From assembly GCF_030538655.1 (NCBI RefSeq), contig NZ_JAUNTO010000022.1:1-40812 (forward strand): DNA of 40,812 nt, in the 5' to 3' direction. Below, piece after piece: positions 7,838 to 40,612 of the stretch (position 1 is its first letter; each line of letters begins with the position of its first letter). The stretch comes from Paracoccus sp. (in: a-proteobacteria) (lineage in GTDB: Bacteria; Pseudomonadota; Alphaproteobacteria; Rhodobacterales; Rhodobacteraceae). The notes beneath the pieces are model-generated. The model had not been told where the DNA came from. It did not search any database and saw only the letters and a list, made by a program, of their open reading frames with translations. The translations under genes and the position numbers were made by a program.

Positions 7838-9256
7838 TCAGATGGTGGTCAATTGCGCGCTTAGCGCGGCAGCGACGGTTTCGGCATGAGCGGTGACTTC
7901 GGGGATGCCCATCAACTCGCCCACATGTCCGCGGGCAAGGGGACCGGCGATCGACAGGTTCGGGCTGGGCTGGCCGTTTGTGCCGACGGCGCGACAGCCA
8001 TCGGTCACCTCCAGCCCAAGGTGCAGCGCGTCGGGGCGCACCAGCCCGGCATCCGCCAGCGAGGCGATCACCGGGTTGCTGGCGATGATCCCGCCATGGG
8101 CTGGCCCGGTGGTCAGCACCACGGCATCAAACAGGTCGCGCCGGGGCGTGGCGCGGCGTGGGGTCCAGTTGACGGCGATGCCTGCGGGCGTTGCTGTGGC
8201 GCTGTGCAGATGGCCTGCGCTCAGGGTCAGGCGCGACCGGGCGATCAGGTCATCCAGCACGGCCTGCACCTGCGGGGCGATGCGGAAACGATGGACATCC
8301 CACCAGACACGCAGGCGGTTGACCAGACGGGCGCGCTCGGCCTGTGGCAGTGCCGCCCAGATGGCCGGACCATCACGGCGGACATTATCCAGCGCCGCCT
8401 GCCATGGCAGGCCCCGTGCCCGGTCCGTGCGCACGGCGGCGCGGATGCGTCGCAGCACGGCAAGCGCGGTGGTTTCGGGCTGGCTGGCGAAATCGGCCTC
8501 GCTTTCGGGATAATCGCTGGCGTGACCGCGTGATCGCAGCCCGCGCCGCGACATCGCGGTGATCCGTCCGGCAAAGCCCTGCCTCTCAAGGCTGGCGATC
8601 ACATCGGCCGAGGTCAGGCCCGTGCCGACGATCAGCACATTGCGCGCGGTTCGGGCAATCGCTGTGATGGGGCCCGTGTCCGAAGGGTCTGTCACCACGC
8701 GCGCATCATGCGTCAGCGCGGCAAAGCTGGTGGGCACACCCGGCGCCGGGTGGCTGGTGGCGATGACCAGATGATCGGCGCGGATCACCCGACCATTGTC
8801 CAGCCGGATCGCGTAATTCGTCCCCGGCACCACCGCAATGGCGCGGGCCTGGATATGGGTGATCCGTCCTGACAGCAGCCAGGGGCGCAACCGATCCGCG
8901 ACATAAGCGCCAAAGACCGCCCGCTGGGGATAAAGCGCGCCATCCGCCGCCTGCGTGCCGGGCGACAGAGGGGTGCCGGTATCCTCGATCCACTGCTGAA
9001 AATCGCCACGCTGGCTGGTGTCGATGGTCATGCGGCTGGCGGGAACATTGATGCGATGACTGGGGTCTTGTGTCGAATAGGCCAGCCCGGCGCCCAGCTG
9101 GGCGCGCGGCTCGATCACCAAAATCTGCGCGTCAACCGCGTTACGGGCAAGGTGAAAGGCAAGCGTAGCCCCGGTAAAGCCACCACCGATGATGGCGATG
9201 GTCGGGCGTGCGGGGCGGGTGGCAGAGCCTTGGTCAATCTGTGCGATCATGGTCAT
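7838..9256 (-). CDS. FAD/NAD(P)-binding oxidoreductase-like protein (NAD_binding_9 type)
   Basis: This 472-residue protein has two Rossmann-type dinucleotide sites: IGGGFTGATLA near residue 22, with an acidic residue ending the following strand (VIEPR), and VGTGLTSADV in the middle. This layout matches the COG4529/PF13454 family of FAD-dependent proteins often found in ssu-type operons. Its reaction is not established. It may reduce or oxidise an organosulfur intermediate, or protect flavin chemistry. Its ATG overlaps the stop of the amidohydrolase gene (ATGA at 9253-9256), indicating translational coupling, and ssuA follows 9 bp later. Family assignment is good; function is open. Confidence 0.8.
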   Translation of the reverse strand: MTMIAQIDQGSATRPARPTIAIIGGGFTGATLAFHLARNAVDAQILVIEPRAQLGAGLAYSTQDPSHRINVPASRMTIDTSQRGDFQQWIEDTGTPLSPGTQAADGALYPQRAVFGAYVADRLRPWLLSGRITHIQARAIAVVPGTNYAIRLDNGRVIRADHLVIATSHPAPGVPTSFAALTHDARVVTDPSDTGPITAIARTARNVLIVGTGLTSADVIASLERQGFAGRITAMSRRGLRSRGHASDYPESEADFASQPETTALAVLRRIRAAVRTDRARGLPWQAALDNVRRDGPAIWAALPQAERARLVNRLRVWWDVHRFRIAPQVQAVLDDLIARSRLTLSAGHLHSATATPAGIAVNWTPRRATPRRDLFDAVVLTTGPAHGGIIASNPVIASLADAGLVRPDALHLGLEVTDGCRAVGTNGQPSPNLSIAGPLARGHVGELMGIPEVTAHAETVAAALSAQLTTI

Positions 9257-35593: not shown

Positions 35594-36859
35594 TCATGGC
35601 GTGGCGCGGTATTCGATCAGCACCGCCGACATGTCATCGCCGCGTTCGCCCTTGGTGTATTCGGAAATCGACCACGACATTGATTCCAGAAAGTTGTGGC
35701 CGTGCAGCATCTGGTTGGTTCGCAGGATCATCGACATCCCCTCTTCGCCCAATAGGCGACCGTCGGGGTTTTCCGCCTCGGTTATGCCGTCCGAGGTTAT
35801 CAGCAGCCGGTCGCCGGGGTGCAGGCGCACCGATACTTCGTCAAAGCGGGGTTCGGTAAACAGACCAATCGGCATCCCGCCATTGCCCAGCCACACCACC
35901 TCGCCCGAACTGCGTTGCAGCACCGGATGCGGATGCCCGGCCTGCACCAGATTTACCATGCCGGTGCGGTGGTTCAGTTCGGCATAGAGCATGGTGAAAT
36001 AGGTGTCCGTCTGCATTTCGTCCAGCATCATGGTGTTCAGAATGCGGGCCAGACGTTTGGGCGGCACAGAATTGACCCCGCCTGGTGTGTTGTGCAGCGC
36101 GATGTTCTGTTCGGCGGAACCGGAAAGATGCACCGCCAGTCGTGCGGCCAGCAAGGCTGCGGCGACACCGTGGCCCGACACGTCAATGGCAAAGATGCCC
36201 GCCCGATCTGCGTCGATAGGAAAAAATCCCACCAGATCGCCGCCGATATGGCCTGCGGGGCGCAGCATCAGCGACAGATCGAACGGGCCGAAACTGCCGT
36301 TGCGTTCGCGCACCAGCCCCTGTTGCAGCTTGCGCGCCTCGATCAGGTCGCGGTCCATGGCCTCTTGCGCGGCGTGCAGCTTTTCCCATGCGCTGAGCAG
36401 TTGCGCGTTGGTGGCGCGTAATTGTTCTTCGAACCGCAGGATGCGTTCGGCTGCGGCCAGCCGGGCCAATAATTCGGCCCCCGCGACCGGCTTGGTCATG
36501 AAATCATCGGCCCCGGCGGCCAGACCATAGGCAATGTCGGCCTTGTCGGTTTTCGAGGTCAGCAGAATGAAATAGCCATAGCCTTCGCGCTTCATCGCCC
36601 GGAACGCTTGACAGAACTCCGGCCCCGACATGCCCGGCATCACCCAATCCGACAGAATCATGTCGGGCTGGCGCGCCTGACAGATCGCCATGGCTTCTGG
36701 TGCTGATGCGGCCTCGACCACCTCGTAACCGGCACGGCGCAGTTGAATGGCCAGCGTGCGTCGCTGGGCGCGGCTGTCATCCACCAGCAAAACCTGTCGG
36801 CACGCCCGGACCACGGTGCAATCTGATGGTGGGTCAAAGGATCGATTCGCTTCTTTCAT
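35594..36859 (-). CDS. Response-regulator-linked PP2C (RsbU/SpoIIE-type) phosphatase
   Basis: This 421-residue protein has a receiver domain (residues about 22-140; VLLVDDSR with the acidic pair D27-D28, phosphoacceptor D71 in LSDWVMPGMSG, and TKP lysine), a coiled-coil linker (EEQLRATNAQLLSAWEKLHAAQEAM) and a PP2C/SpoIIE serine phosphatase domain. The metal-binding motifs are GGDLVGFF, DVSGHGVAAALLA, SDGITEAEN and GDDMSAVL. Such proteins dephosphorylate an anti-sigma-factor antagonist in partner-switching pathways under control of a phosphorelay. The divergent Hpt gene is a likely phosphorelay partner. No RsbV/RsbW-like gene is in the window. Confidence 0.88.
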   Translation of the reverse strand: MKEANRSFDPPSDCTVVRACRQVLLVDDSRAQRRTLAIQLRRAGYEVVEAASAPEAMAICQARQPDMILSDWVMPGMSGPEFCQAFRAMKREGYGYFILLTSKTDKADIAYGLAAGADDFMTKPVAGAELLARLAAAERILRFEEQLRATNAQLLSAWEKLHAAQEAMDRDLIEARKLQQGLVRERNGSFGPFDLSLMLRPAGHIGGDLVGFFPIDADRAGIFAIDVSGHGVAAALLAARLAVHLSGSAEQNIALHNTPGGVNSVPPKRLARILNTMMLDEMQTDTYFTMLYAELNHRTGMVNLVQAGHPHPVLQRSSGEVVWLGNGGMPIGLFTEPRFDEVSVRLHPGDRLLITSDGITEAENPDGRLLGEEGMSMILRTNQMLHGHNFLESMSWSISEYTKGERGDDMSAVLIEYRATP

Positions 36860-36980
36860 GGGGCGAACGTAACCTGCCGAGCGTAAAGATCGGGTAAATA
36901 GGACAAATTCTCATGGCTTAAGGTTTCGGTAAGCGGCGCGTGCTATCGTGCCGGAAAGGGATTCTCGGTATGGGGCAAGG

Positions 36981-37334
36981 ATGATTGACTGGAATCGTGT
37001 GATCGAACTGCGCAACGAAGTGGGACCGGATGAATTCGGGCCGGTTCTGGAACTATTCATGGACGAAGTAGAAGAAATCGTCATGCGCCTTGATGCCAGT
37101 GATCCGGCACGGCTGGCGCGCGACATGCATTTTCTCAAGGGCAGTGCATGGAATCTGGGCTTTGCCGAATTCGGTGCGCTGTGTCAGCAGGGTGAAACTC
37201 TGGCCATGCGGGGCCGGACTGAGGATGTGAAGCCCGAGGATTTCGTGGCCTGCTATTCGACCTCGAAACAGATCTTCATGCGCGATCTGGCCTGTGCGGT
37301 CGGTCCGGATCAGGAGGAAACCGGCGTCGCCTGA
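36981..37334 (+). CDS. Stand-alone Hpt domain protein
   Basis: This 117-residue all-helical histidine phosphotransfer protein carries the phosphorylatable histidine H50 in the motif DMHFLKGSAWNLGF. The start at 36981 (ATG, GGGG five bases before it) is preferred over GTG at 36948, which has no ribosome binding site. It is divergent from the receiver-phosphatase gene with a 121-bp shared region. Its likely job is to pass phosphate to or from that receiver. The cognate hybrid kinase is not in the window. Confidence 0.83.
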   Translation: MIDWNRVIELRNEVGPDEFGPVLELFMDEVEEIVMRLDASDPARLARDMHFLKGSAWNLGFAEFGALCQQGETLAMRGRTEDVKPEDFVACYSTSKQIFMRDLACAVGPDQEETGVA

Positions 37335-37427: not shown

Positions 37428-38270
37428 TCAGCCTGCCCGCAAGTGGTCGATGATCGCATCACACAACCGCCCCTGGGCCACACGGTCAAAGGCGGCAAAC
37501 ATCGGTTGGCTGTTCAGTTCCAGAAACAGCAACGCGCCCGTGTCATCCGCCATGAAATCTGCGGCGGCGAAATCCAGATTCAGCCTGTCGCACAACCGCA
37601 CCAGACGATCCGCCAGATCAGGCGGCACATCGGCTACGGTCAGTTCCGCCGTCTGACTGCGGCGATAATCAAGATCGGGCGAGTTCAGCCAGAACCCCAA
37701 TATCGCATCGCCAATCCGGTAGATCCGCAGTTCAGGGCGATTCAGGCGCGGCTGAACAAAGCGCGGATAATCCGCCCCCTGTGGTGTGTCTGCGATCAGG
37801 GCTGTATATTCCCCACCTGCAACCGGCTTTTGAATCAGGTTTTCATGACCGAAAAGGCCGGACAGGTCATTCATGACCTGTGTGGGCGGGATCGCCAACC
37901 CCAACTCCTGTGCAGTCAAAAGATTTTCGATCTTGTTGTTTTCCCGCAGATGTGTGTGCCGGTTGAACATTCGGATGCCGGGTTGGGCGCTGATCCAGCC
38001 GCGAACAGCCTGATACCAGTTCAACGCCGCTGCCTGCGCCTGTTCCGGGTTGTCGGTCTGATACAAAAACACATCATGGCGACCAAAGAATCCGGTCGGA
38101 GAAATGGTTTTGCCGTTTATTGAAAAACGATTGGGCTGAATATCAATATGAAACTGAACGTTGCTCTGCGGCCCCAGCAGCAGATCATGGTAATCAATAC
38201 CGCGACGATTTAAACGGTCAGCCAAAACCACCATGCTGGGGTCGCCCCGTCCGCCTGCAATCAAGATCAT
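37428..38270 (-). CDS. ATP-grasp ligase, probable graspetide (omega-ester peptide) cross-linking enzyme
   Basis: This 280-residue ATP-grasp protein has an N-terminal Rossmann-like part, the nucleotide-binding lysine and glycine loop LIQKPVAGGEYTAL (K148, G152-G153), the FVQPRLNRPELRIYRIG segment and the metal-binding end LLFLELNSQPMF (E251, N253). It is 65 bp downstream of a small gene with two TTxxxxEE repeats, the core pattern of plesiocin-type graspetides, so it most likely makes side-chain ester bonds between Thr and Glu. AAAGGGGGG lies shortly before the ATG. General RimK-like ligases are the main alternative; the adjacent precursor decides for peptide modification. Confidence 0.8.
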   Translation of the reverse strand: MILIAGGRGDPSMVVLADRLNRRGIDYHDLLLGPQSNVQFHIDIQPNRFSINGKTISPTGFFGRHDVFLYQTDNPEQAQAAALNWYQAVRGWISAQPGIRMFNRHTHLRENNKIENLLTAQELGLAIPPTQVMNDLSGLFGHENLIQKPVAGGEYTALIADTPQGADYPRFVQPRLNRPELRIYRIGDAILGFWLNSPDLDYRRSQTAELTVADVPPDLADRLVRLCDRLNLDFAAADFMADDTGALLFLELNSQPMFAAFDRVAQGRLCDAIIDHLRAG

Positions 38271-38289
38271 CTGCCCCCCTTTCAGGCCG

Positions 38290-38320
38290 CAGCCGGGGCA
38301 TCCGTCAGGCGCCCCGGCTG
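38290..38320 (-). promoter_or_regulatory. Hairpin between graspetide precursor and ligase genes
   Basis: A perfect 10-bp stem (38290-38299 with 38311-38320) with an 11-base loop fills much of the 65-bp gap. It has no T-run. It would protect the short precursor message or reduce read-through, giving more precursor than enzyme, as expected in ribosomal-peptide operons. Confidence 0.6.
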
Positions 38321-38335
38321 GCCTCTTGCCCAGGC

Positions 38336-38560
38336 TTAGACGCCGATGTGAAAAGCTGCATCCAGCGGCAGCTTGTGGCGGTTCAGCTCGCGCGGTTCTT
38401 CTTCGCCCAGGGCCATGGTGGTCATGATCGGACCACGCCAGCCGCCGTCTTCTTCGCCAATGGCCATGGTGGTCGCCCAGCCAGAGCCGTGCAGCGCGCC
38501 GCCAACATCATCGCATTCCTGTAAGGAAAGGGGGCGAACGGCGTTGTTTTCTGTCGTCAT
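38336..38560 (-). CDS. Graspetide precursor peptide with two TTxxxxEE core repeats
   Basis: This 74-residue precursor starts at ATG 38560 (AAAGG eight bases upstream); the frame is open further up, but those codons lack a ribosome binding site. Residues 1-21 look like a leader ending VGG (LSLQECDDVGG, similar to double-glycine leaders). The core holds T30-T31-MAIG-E36-E37 and T47-T48-MALG-E53-E54, spaced 17 residues apart and encoded by 24-bp repeats differing at two bases. TTxxxxEE is the cross-linking motif of plesiocin-type graspetides, in which Thr hydroxyls are esterified to Glu side chains. A 20-residue tail follows the second repeat. The ATP-grasp gene follows on the same strand. I know of no identical peptide. 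Confidence 0.85.
   Translation of the reverse strand: MTTENNAVRPLSLQECDDVGGALHGSGWATTMAIGEEDGGWRGPIMTTMALGEEEPRELNRHKLPLDAAFHIGV
38399..38473 (-). repeat. Two direct core-motif repeats in the graspetide precursor
   Basis: The 24-bp units at 38450-38473 and 38399-38422 encode TTMAIGEE and TTMALGEE and differ at two positions. They are separated by 27 bp. This is internal duplication of a core segment. Confidence 0.85.
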
Positions 38561-38678: not shown

Positions 38679-39074
38679 CTATTCGGCGGCGATCTGTGCG
38701 GCGGGCCGGGGCATGGCCCCTGCGGCCATCACAGCCGCCGCCGTGCGGGAACTGACCCCCAGCACACGCAGAACGGCTGAAACATGCACTCGCACCGTCG
38801 AGGGCGAGATGGCTAGATCGCGGGCAATATCCTTGTTCGTGCGTCCTTCAGCGATCAGTTTCAGCACGGTCCGCTGTCGCAGCGACAGTCTTTCAAACGG
38901 GCCGCCGCCCGGCGTTGCCCGGTGCCGTGCCTCTGCGGGCGGGGCAGCCATGATGACGATATCCGCGCCGGGGTTAAGCTGCCGGATGATCTGCCGCATG
39001 TCGTCCTGATAGGCCGGGTTGGCATTGGTGACGATGATTCTGGTTTTGATGTCCTGCGCGTGCTCGGCGGTCAT
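38679..39074 (-). CDS. Short LuxR-type regulator with a cut-down receiver domain
   Basis: This 131-residue protein has a LuxR/GerE DNA-binding domain at residues 62-120 (LSLRQRTVLKLIAEGRTNKD followed by IARDLAISPSTVRVHVSAVLRVL). The first 45 residues (TRIIVTNANPAYQDDMRQII) look like only the first strand, helix and second strand of a receiver domain; the acidic pair reads TNANP and the phosphoacceptor segment is absent. It is thus likely independent of phosphorylation. GGAGGAG precedes the ATG by nine bases. It lies between the graspetide genes and the peptide cluster and may control both. Confidence 0.82.
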   Translation of the reverse strand: MTAEHAQDIKTRIIVTNANPAYQDDMRQIIRQLNPGADIVIMAAPPAEARHRATPGGGPFERLSLRQRTVLKLIAEGRTNKDIARDLAISPSTVRVHVSAVLRVLGVSSRTAAAVMAAGAMPRPAAQIAAE

Positions 39075-39418: not shown

Positions 39419-39421
39419 ATG

Positions 39422-39547
39422 ATGAAAAGAAACATGAAAGAACTGAGCGAGCAAGAACTCGATCAGGTTTCGGGTGGCTTGTTTCTACCCTGGCCGCGCC
39501 CTTGGCCGCTGCCGTGGCAGCCCTTCCCGCGTTGGCCGATACTGTGA
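39422..39547 (+). CDS. Double-glycine-leader precursor of a Pro/Trp-rich peptide
   Basis: This 41-residue peptide (42 if the preceding ATG at 39419 is used; AAGGA lies seven bases before 39422) has a leader MKRNMKELSEQELDQVSGG, a textbook double-glycine leader for C39-type peptidase transporters. The predicted 22-residue core begins LFLPWPRPWPLPWQPF and ends PRWPIL, with eight Pro, four Trp and two Arg and no acidic residue. In composition it resembles indolicidin and tritrpticin, vertebrate antimicrobial peptides. It is the first of seven small genes leading to a secretion gene. A Pro/Trp-rich bacteriocin is inferred. Confidence 0.82.
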   Translation: MKRNMKELSEQELDQVSGGLFLPWPRPWPLPWQPFPRWPIL

Positions 39548-39557
39548 GGGTTTTGGC

Positions 39558-39698
39558 ATGAGCAAGGAAAACACCTTCATCGAACTGGACCAGATACAAA
39601 TTGAACAGGTTTCGGGCGCGATGATTGTTGGTCCAATTTTTCCGGATCCGATCGGATATCGGTTTGCTCTTTGGGTGCTCAGTAAATTCAGGCGGTAA
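39558..39698 (+). CDS. Small secreted-peptide precursor, leader ending VSGA
   Basis: This 46-residue peptide starts 10 bp after the preceding stop, with GAGGG ahead of the ATG. The leader MSKENTFIELDQIQIEQVSG ends in a Gly-Ala variant of the double-glycine site. The core of 25 residues (MIVGPIFPDPIGYRFALWVL, then SKFRR) is hydrophobic with a basic tail. No domain is recognised. Position and leader mark it as an exported peptide of the microcin/class II bacteriocin sort. Confidence 0.8.
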   Translation: MSKENTFIELDQIQIEQVSGAMIVGPIFPDPIGYRFALWVLSKFRR

Positions 39699-39709
39699 TA
39701 GAGAGTGTC

Positions 39710-39862
39710 ATGAGCCGGAAAGATGCTCTGGCGAATGACGCGGACGAAAGCTCTGTGATCGCGCTGGATGACCGGCAGATCGAAGACGTTTCTGGCGGTG
39801 CGCGTGTCGTTGTCGCCGTGCATATTCTGCGTGCGGTTTGGGCCATGCTCCGCGCACGCTGA
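39710..39862 (+). CDS. Double-glycine-leader precursor of a cationic amphipathic peptide
   Basis: This 50-residue peptide begins 11 bp after the previous stop, with a weak GAGAG ahead of the ATG. Leader residues 1-30 end in IEDVSGG. The 20-residue core ARVVVAVHILRAVWAMLRAR has four Arg, one His, no acidic residue and a periodic pattern that fits an amphipathic helix, typical of membrane-active peptides. It is part of the tandem cluster. Function as an antimicrobial peptide is inferred. Confidence 0.82.
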   Translation: MSRKDALANDADESSVIALDDRQIEDVSGGARVVVAVHILRAVWAMLRAR

Positions 39863-39921
39863 ACGCCCATCCGGGCAAAACCGCCCATTTCGGGCAAATC
39901 ACAGCAACAAAGGAGGAAATC

Positions 39922-40089
39922 ATGTTTGCTGAAAAGACCGAACTGAAACTGGTCGAAGACCTGAACGAAAACGCCATCGTCGAATTGAACGCGGCGGATG
40001 TAGAGGAAGTGTCGGGGGGAGTTATTCCCGCAATCATTTTCGGTGCGTTTGTTGCTGGTTATGTCGTTGGTCGCGCCAGTCGTCGCTAA
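39922..40089 (+). CDS. Double-glycine-leader peptide with GxxxG membrane core (paralog A)
   Basis: This 55-residue peptide has AGGAGG five bases before the ATG. Its 33-residue leader (MFAEKTELKLVEDLNENAIV, then ELNAADVEEVSGG) is almost the same as that of the next gene. The core VIPAIIFGAFVAGYVVGRAS plus RR is a glycine-containing hydrophobic helix with GYVVG and a basic end. GxxxG-type segments are seen in two-peptide bacteriocins. The gene is a tandem duplicate of the next one in its leader. Confidence 0.85.
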   Translation: MFAEKTELKLVEDLNENAIVELNAADVEEVSGGVIPAIIFGAFVAGYVVGRASRR

Positions 40090-40209
40090 TCGCAAAATCA
40101 GAAAGGAATGATGAAGATGTTTGCTGAAAAGACTGAACTGAAACTGTTCGAGGACCTGAACGAAAACGCCATCGTCGAGCTGAATGCGATGGACGTGGAA
40201 GAAGTGTCG
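39922..40209 (+). repeat. Duplicated leader sequence in paralogs A and B
   Basis: Codons 1-31 of the two neighbouring genes (39922-40014 and 40117-40209) agree at about 82 of 93 bases, mostly differing at third positions, while the core codons after VSG are unrelated in detail. This shows duplication with the leader conserved and the core free to change. Confidence 0.85.
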
Positions 40210-40302
40210 GGTGCTGCCATTCCCCTTATTGTTTGGGGTGTTATCGCGATTGCCTCTGGTGGCGCGGCTGGTATTGGCTTGGGCTACCTCATCAATCGGT
40301 AA
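40117..40302 (+). CDS. Leader peptide with glycine-rich membrane core (paralog B), leader ending VSGA
   Basis: This 61-residue peptide is started at ATG 40117 by alignment to paralog A; AAGGA lies nine bases before, and in-frame ATGs at 40108 and 40111 are alternatives. The leader ends EEVSGA. The core AIPLIVWGVIAIASGGAAGI plus GLGYLINR is hydrophobic with two overlapping GxxxG motifs (G48-G52, G52-G56). It probably works with paralog A as a pair. Immunity genes are not recognised by similarity. Confidence 0.83.
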   Translation: MFAEKTELKLFEDLNENAIVELNAMDVEEVSGAAIPLIVWGVIAIASGGAAGIGLGYLINR

Positions 40303-40322
40303 ACCAAAGGAAGGCTGGTAAA

Positions 40323-40424
40323 ATGTTCAATCTCTCGTCTGAAACGATCATCTGGTTGGCCGTCCTGACGGTGTTAGCGATGGTCTTGGGCTATGGGATC
40401 GGATCGGATCTGGCTAATCACTGA
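40323..40424 (+). CDS. Leaderless 33-residue membrane peptide
   Basis: MFNLSSETIIWLAVLTVLAM followed by VLGYGIGSDLANH is a single membrane helix with no double-glycine leader. AAGGAAGG lies eight bases before the ATG. Its end (LGYGIGSDLA) resembles the end of the next peptide (LGYQVGRDLA), so the two share origin or contact. It may be an immunity or accessory peptide, or a leaderless bacteriocin. It lies 20 bp after paralog B and 26 bp before the next gene. Confidence 0.72.
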   Translation: MFNLSSETIIWLAVLTVLAMVLGYGIGSDLANH

Positions 40425-40450
40425 AATAAAATCTCTGAAAGGAAAAAGAT

Positions 40451-40612
40451 ATGAATGCTCGTGAAAAAGAACTGCTGTCTTTTGAACTGAACGATCAGGA
40501 TGTTGACTTGATCTCTGGCGGTGTCGTCTTCCCGCTAATCCCGCTGCTGGCACTGGGCGTAGCCTCTGCTGCTTTGGGCTACCAGGTTGGTCGTGATCTG
40601 GCCCGCAAATAA
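40451..40612 (+). CDS. Double-glycine-leader peptide with GY-G membrane core
   Basis: This 53-residue peptide has AAAGGA upstream of the ATG. Leader residues 1-24 end in DVDLISGG. The 29-residue core (VVFPLIPLLALGVASAALGY, then QVGRDLARK) is a hydrophobic helix with the shared motif GYQVG and a charged end. It closes the tandem peptide series before two hairpins and the secretion gene. It is most likely an exported bacteriocin-like peptide. Confidence 0.84.
   Translation: MNAREKELLSFELNDQDVDLISGGVVFPLIPLLALGVASAALGYQVGRDLARK

Follow-up and report, generated by a model that had tools for sequence, protein, structure and literature searches.

A probable plesiocin-type graspetide pair in a microcin-type gene cluster of Paracoccus

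A conserved pair of precursor and ligase genes

On contig NZ_JAUNTO010000022.1 of Paracoccus sp. (assembly GCF_030538655.1, a genome bin of 3.08 Mb that is 90% complete), a gene for a 74-residue peptide is followed, 65 bp downstream and also on the minus strand, by a gene for an ATP-grasp ligase. The window, meaning the whole stretch of DNA analysed, comprises positions 1–40,812 of this contig. Translation bore out what a preliminary description, made from the letters of the DNA, had said of both genes: the peptide holds two repeats, TTMAIGEE and TTMALGEE, of the pattern TTxxxxEE, which we take to be the defining motif of group 2 of the graspetides, and 20 residues remain past the second EE. 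The pair is real and conserved, and sequence comparisons indicate that its product is very probably a peptide that is secreted and cross-linked by ester bonds within the chain. A search of the whole bin with the DNA pattern of the motif gave two matches, both inside the precursor gene, and a reversed control gave none. The ratio of nonsynonymous to synonymous substitution rates between the window and its close relative L007 was 0.16 for the ligase and 0.42 for the precursor; across three pairs, it ranged from 0.13 to 0.17 for ligases and from 0.06 to 0.42 for precursors.

For the comparison, a scan of the collection gave 37 loci, to which further loci of the genus were added from whole genomes; alignment A2 took in 26 of these 37 in addition to the window. 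The nearest ligase group consists of 14 loci (the window, L007–L016, L062, L065 and L066), of which L062, L065 and L066 are absent from the trees and were assigned by ligase identity to the window (53–67%). The preliminary description had tied its reading to conservation of the small gene next to the ligase, and such conservation was found: a motif gene adjoins the ligase in all 14 loci, and in 12 it encodes a short double-glycine precursor with two or three repeats, the exceptions being L015 and L016. These 12 short-type loci are no independent count, because they were sorted by their precursor. Eleven precursors were aligned (the window and ten others; L065 was left out, its N-terminus and leader being lost in a run of N). 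T30, T31, E36, E37, T47, T48, E53 and E54 are invariant among them, as are both GEE triplets and residues L11, V19, G21, L66 and H71, while R9 and E15 are nearly so. A C-terminal motif, L[DE][AGI]x[FLI]H, is present in 12 of 12 short-type precursors versus 0 of 30 precursors of other types, and reads PLD[AG]xxH in six of the 12.

The profile of the 11 precursors, compared with the PDB at E values up to 10, had a single match, PsnA2(14–38), at E 0.0023. This is the stretch of the plesiocin precursor that was crystallised with its ligase PsnB, and the alignment spans the end of the leader and the repeat TTLAIGEE. The window precursor used alone as a PDB query gave no match. The leader had been described as differing from the known leaders of microviridin and plesiocin. 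From that of plesiocin it does differ in its letters, but the double-glycine pattern is shared, and the last part of the leader aligns in pattern with the plesiocin-type LFIEDLGKVTGG-like leader.

A profile of the ligase clade placed PsnB first among PDB chains (117 bits, E 6.5e-33; runner-up 67 bits), with RimK and LysX chains at 25 bits or less. By sequence the enzyme does not group with RimK-type ligases, a grouping that the preliminary description had named as one that would count against its reading. PsnB is also the best match of the window ligase by fold. Among NCBIfam models, three graspetide models scored 53, 45 and 40 bits on the window ligase, versus 20.1 bits for the RimK model TIGR00768 (cut-off 143.4), all below their curated cut-offs.

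In a first tree of 38 rows, without the fragments L038 and L043, the window fell into an 11-row subclade (support 100/100) with L007 (79% identity) and L008–L016, and 32 rows formed one clade (100/99), to which neither the plesiocin-type L041 nor other ATP-grasp enzymes belong. A second tree of 31 rows, made without long rows (nine rows were left out in all: L005, L006, L034, L037, L038, L039, L040, L042 and L043), retained the 11-row subclade (100/99) and a subclade whose precursors carry an N-terminal domain (97/95); the Neomegalonema rows reached only 85/69 and nine short-type rows 81/90. The nearest solved ligase is PsnB (PDB 7drm), whose chain has 334 residues versus 280 in the window. 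L041, from Nannocystis, is the sole plesiocin-type ligase in the trees: it matches PsnB at 449 bits, and its precursor, with repeats TTLAIGEE, TTLAIGEE, TTLALGEE and TTKALGEE, matches PsnA2. By sequence, the window ligase thus belongs to a distinct clade of short enzymes, in a comparison that covers PsnB and L041. No description of this ligase group was found in the portions of the open-access graspetide literature searched, a scope that leaves out most subscription papers.

The association of motif and ligase is also seen in the genus. A full-length ligase of the window type (E 1e-100 or better) was found in 7 of 101 genomes, and a tandem motif pair lies beside it in all seven, versus none of the 94 others. 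A looser motif pattern matched in 27 of the 101; in the remaining 20 there were 22 isolated matches, never two close together, and 17 of these were TTRGFGEE. Another of the 22, coding for TTKALGEE (G751:C9:648441-648466), lies in a genus genome that lacks the ligase. Three genomes (G684, G725 and G748) have weaker, partial-length ATP-grasp matches (E 1e-18 to 1e-20), which were excluded from the clade by score only. The ligase type is rare: among genomes sampled from the family it occurs in 4 of 295 (two more gave weak matches), and among those sampled from the class in 2 of 385 (five more gave weak matches).

The surrounding microcin-type cluster

Upstream of the precursor lies a probable cluster regulator of the LuxR type, and divergent from these three genes run six genes for double-glycine peptides (39419–40612), two of which pass NCBIfam bacteriocin cut-offs (Table 1). 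The cluster thus resembles those of class IIb bacteriocins and double-glycine microcins, the peptide at 39922–40089 scoring as a member of the lactobin A/cerein 7B family. The leader pattern is common to the graspetide precursor and to these peptides, whereas only the precursor bears the ring motif. Full-length homologues of the regulator were found in L007, L062 and L066, and in L065 at a distance of 3.5 kb; in L010, L012, L013 and L014 the match was confined to the helix-turn-helix part.

Table 1. Features of the graspetide pair and its neighbours in the window
Feature	Position	Strand	Evidence
Graspetide precursor P0001, 74 residues	38336..38560	-	translation of open reading frame; family alignment; PsnA2 profile match
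Double-glycine-type leader, residues 1-22	38495..38560	-	alignment of 11 precursors; putative cleavage after G21-A22
Core repeat 1, TTMAIGEE, residues 30-37	38450..38473	-	
Core repeat 2, TTMALGEE, residues 47-54	38399..38422	-	
Conserved C-terminal motif LDAAFH (family pattern L[DE][AGI]x[FLI]H), putative follower	38348..38365	-	12/12 short-type precursors
ATP-grasp graspetide synthetase P0002, 280 residues	37428..38270	-	profiles, trees, fold comparison
LuxR/GerE-type regulator, probable cluster regulator	38679..39074	-	PF00196 6e-19; upstream of precursor
Double-glycine microcin-like peptide 1	39419..39547	+	TIGR01847 19.5 bits (cut-off 15.7); leader pattern
Double-glycine microcin-like peptide 2	39558..39698	+	leader pattern; no family match
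Double-glycine microcin-like peptide 3	39710..39862	+	leader pattern; TIGR03949 below cut-off
Class IIb bacteriocin-like peptide	39922..40089	+	TIGR03949 2.7e-7, 30.2 bits (cut-off 21.5); homologues in L007, L062, L064
Double-glycine peptide, paralogue of the 39922-40089 peptide	40108..40302	+	TIGR03949 below cut-off; leader pattern
Double-glycine peptide	40451..40612	+	83% identical homologue adjoining HlyD in L062
HlyD-type exporter subunit, first 26 codons, cut by contig end	40734..40811	+	

The last 78 bases of the contig encode the start of an HlyD-type subunit, with 73% identity over 26 residues to the HlyD of L062 (E 1.7e-6). In L062, exporter and HlyD come first, followed by three stretches that match double-glycine peptides of the window and then by LuxR, precursor and ligase. 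HlyD and an ATP-binding cassette (ABC) exporter with a C39 peptidase domain were found in 8 of 12 short-type loci, and are cut by contig ends in two more (the window and L007); the exporters of L008 and L014 have just 40–42% identity to that of L062. From this synteny in relatives, export of the graspetide most probably runs through a microcin-type exporter that also serves the unmodified peptides. Neither HlyD nor the exporter was found in the 5-kb flanks of L015 and L016.

On the other side of the pair, a response regulator with a SpoIIE phosphatase domain and a small open reading frame adjoin the ligase (window 35594–37334). L007 has both in the corresponding position (90% identity), whereas they were not found in the 12 other compared loci.

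Precursor architectures of the wider ligase clade

Within the clade of 32 rows, a motif gene lies beside the ligase in 27, and the five rows without one are all Neomegalonema. In two of the 27, L029 (TTLALGEQ) and L032 (KTMAIGED), the gene holds nothing but variants of the motif. The motif genes adjoining the ligase encode short double-glycine peptides, lysine-rich proteins, predicted lipoproteins, proteins with a conserved N-terminal domain, or long repeat proteins, and the hairpin motif is the only feature common to all these architectures. Among the numbered graspetide groups 1–43 (Carter et al. 2026), groups 34 and 35 are described as often having long repeat precursors (PMC13097080). The predicted lipoproteins (L018, L019, L022 and L033) were recognised by eye from a signal peptide and a Cys. 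Lys/Arg-rich ends resembling nucleic-acid-binding tails were seen in L015:4500-4967, L016:4574-4972 and L020:4337-4996.

The N-terminal domain, of about 100 residues, is predicted to be all-beta; it is conserved in eight loci, upstream of the ligase (L021, L027, L028, L029, L030, L032, L035 and L036). All eight proteins end in a C-terminal PFG, preceded in six by R or by R plus one residue; the same motif was found in L020, from Acidobacteriota, and in no other precursor. L029 and L032 are included in these counts of C-terminal motifs and were left out of the counts of repeats (174 in 39 proteins, 41 of them from N-domain proteins). KTxxxxEE makes up 15 of the 41, which suggests Lys as a possible donor in the clade.

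Two further proteins stood out. A long repeat protein cut by the contig end (L037:2-475) shows CSSFGVGEE and CSFWIGEE after TTxxxGEE repeats, and the Cys-Ser variants suggest other possible donors. In L006:2468-3358 (minus strand), a subtilase (PF00082) with TPxxLD-like C-terminal repeats lies near another ATP-grasp gene and appears, from its sequence, to be a protease fused to a graspetide-like tail.

Inspection of nine Neomegalonema genomes revealed the motif pattern 4 to 15 times in each, spread over two to four contigs, with a reversed control of 0 in eight genomes and 1 in the other. In four of the nine, the match on one contig was a TTRGFGEE stretch; the host proteins at two Neomegalonema loci are presumably serine hydroxymethyltransferase. 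TTxAxGEED motifs were found in several genes at a distance from the ligase gene: in predicted lipoproteins (L070, L072, L087, L089 and L095), which hold as many as 10 repeats, and in proline-rich proteins of 467–569 residues (L071, L073, L075, L077 and L094), which hold two or three. In a sample of the genus that overlaps largely with the nine, 14 of 14 genomes had motif matches and the ligase was detected in 11. A strict co-occurrence of ligase and scattered motifs was not upheld, as in three genomes clusters of the motif are present and no ligase was detected. These three are 68, 91 and 78% complete, in 210, 390 and 370 contigs respectively; either sequence is missing or the motif genes may do without the ligase. 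The strict pattern was also run on 18 further genomes, one of them plesiocin-type. It matched in nine, always in the ligase-adjacent gene apart from two lone matches in Nannocystis; it missed the known motif gene in the other nine, so that further substrates there may have escaped it.

Ring pattern, recognition and significance

The likeness to plesiocin comprises TTxxxxEE hairpin repeats (TTLAIGEE in PsnA2), a single ATP-grasp ligase and a double-glycine-type leader, and the profile matches to PsnA2 and PsnB and the conserved motif gene support the plesiocin-type reading of the preliminary description. The differences are the letters of the leader, the two repeats of the window precursor, the microcin-type setting, and the tail motif, which is absent from the L041 precursor, as that stops at its last motif. 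It is highly probable that the Paracoccus pair encodes a plesiocin-type graspetide with hairpin esters and C39/HlyD export, and probably with serine protease inhibition. The ligase would phosphorylate the side chains of both Glu in each TTxxxxEE repeat, and attack by the two Thr would give two nested Thr-Glu esters, hence a hairpin, per repeat. Four esters per peptide are expected by analogy, because PsnA2 is reported to receive two lactones per repeat (PMC9484694). The mass of the predicted 52-residue core would change by -72.04 Da, from 5653.77 to 5581.72 Da (monoisotopic). The C39 domain of the peptidase-containing exporter would cut the leader after G21-A22, and exporter and HlyD would carry the graspetide out of the cell along with its unmodified neighbours, the class II microcin-like peptides.

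Plesiocin is reported to inhibit serine proteases (PMC13097080), and the two-headed product of the window would most probably do the same. Among the 174 repeats, the third residue is highly variable and G6 almost fixed. Such variability is as expected if the protease is contacted there, and Met at hairpin position 3 would be the likely specificity residue; by analogy with plesiocin, the third repeat residue would be P1.

Several observations weigh against parts of this assignment. Position 5 of the repeat, mostly I, L or V, is more variable than position 3 (2.36 versus 2.08 bits), which weakens the argument on protease specificity. The structural Z scores of the ligase set PsnB (22.9) little above MdnC (22.1), RimK (21.8) and PruB (21.5). 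The stem between the clade and the plesiocin-type ligase is long, at 1.87 changes per site, so that the ring pattern of the clade may differ. As to export, no intact exporter turned up in two of the 12 short-type loci, L009/L063 (18 kb) and L065 (7.2-kb contig), nor was a C39 domain found in the window's own bin, which is incomplete and whose contig ends inside HlyD; the latter is consistent with an exporter beyond the contig end. In L063 (Paracoccus sp. M683), a 32-residue remnant near the ligase (8872-8967) is 69% identical to the L062 exporter.

The role of the tail may be read in two ways. The core patterns of microviridin and graspimiditide differ from TTxxxxEE; both systems are alike in having rings made by ATP-grasp enzymes and short recognition motifs in their precursors. 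That of microviridin is PFFARFL (PMC8939145), which PLD[AG]xxH loosely resembles, as a resemblance only. In fuscimiditide (ThfA/ThfB) the RPFG of the ThfA leader is reported to be central to recognition and to keep this function after transfer of the leader to the C-terminus, a C-terminal leader for ThfB being described as an engineered construct (PMC13003496). In contrast, the short motifs of the window's clade, L[DE][AGI]x[FLI]H and PFG, are C-terminal. By analogy, the ligase may recognise the conserved tail as a natural follower; about equally, the tail could be a functional end of the product. The second possibility, in which the tail belongs to the mature product and makes a target or immunity contact while the leader guides the ligase as with PsnB, falls just short of an even judgement. 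The double-glycine leader may serve recognition in place of the tail, as its end aligns with the stretch of PsnA2 crystallised with PsnB, and the confinement of the tail to short-type precursors is in line with this second possibility. However, the same leader pattern is carried by the unmodified microcin-like peptides of the cluster, and the ligases of L015 and L016, in the same 11-row subclade, adjoin precursors that have neither a double-glycine leader nor the tail. A broader proposal, put forward tentatively and somewhat doubtful, is that substrate choice by the ligases of the clade depends not on an N-terminal leader but on short follower motifs at the C-terminus or on the hairpin motif itself.

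A graspetide with isopeptide or other links, or with a different ester topology (such as a single ring in each repeat, or rings that join the repeats), is unlikely. It would suit the distance of the clade from the plesiocin type and the Lys in many N-domain repeats, and Gra-5, of group 2, was seen to undergo a single dehydration despite two conserved acceptors and at least two donors (PMC9576775). Against it, every repeat of the window has Thr-Thr, and PsnA2 aligns with the precursor family. That the enzyme is an ordinary glutamate ligase of the RimK kind, beside an unrelated small open reading frame, is scarcely credible, given that the sequence profile prefers PsnB by 92 bits, that a motif gene accompanies all 14 nearest ligases, and that its Thr and Glu are invariant in the 11 aligned precursors.

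The preliminary description had spoken of a probable new system. Because its core motif is that already known from plesiocin, this is not a new kind of system; relative to plesiocin, the ligase clade, the microcin-cluster setting and the conserved C-terminal tail appear to be new. The Paracoccus pair is compact and testable, with a clear mass prediction, and would tie peptides of the plesiocin type to the export of class II microcins. Its clade offers a natural test of C-terminal followers, or of leader-free action, in graspetide enzymes, and of the idea that lipoproteins of bacteria may carry ester-stapled hairpins. Stapling of many proteins guided by a follower or by the motif, as in the broader proposal above, is a testable if somewhat doubtful reading. 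If it is true, ester-hairpin stapling would be a portable protein modification: applied to secreted inhibitors with an LDAxxH-type tail in double-glycine microcin clusters, decorating beta-domain proteins with a C-terminal PFG in other alphaproteobacteria, and, in Neomegalonema, placed by one ligase on several predicted lipoproteins and on large proline-rich proteins, whose genes lie elsewhere in the genome.
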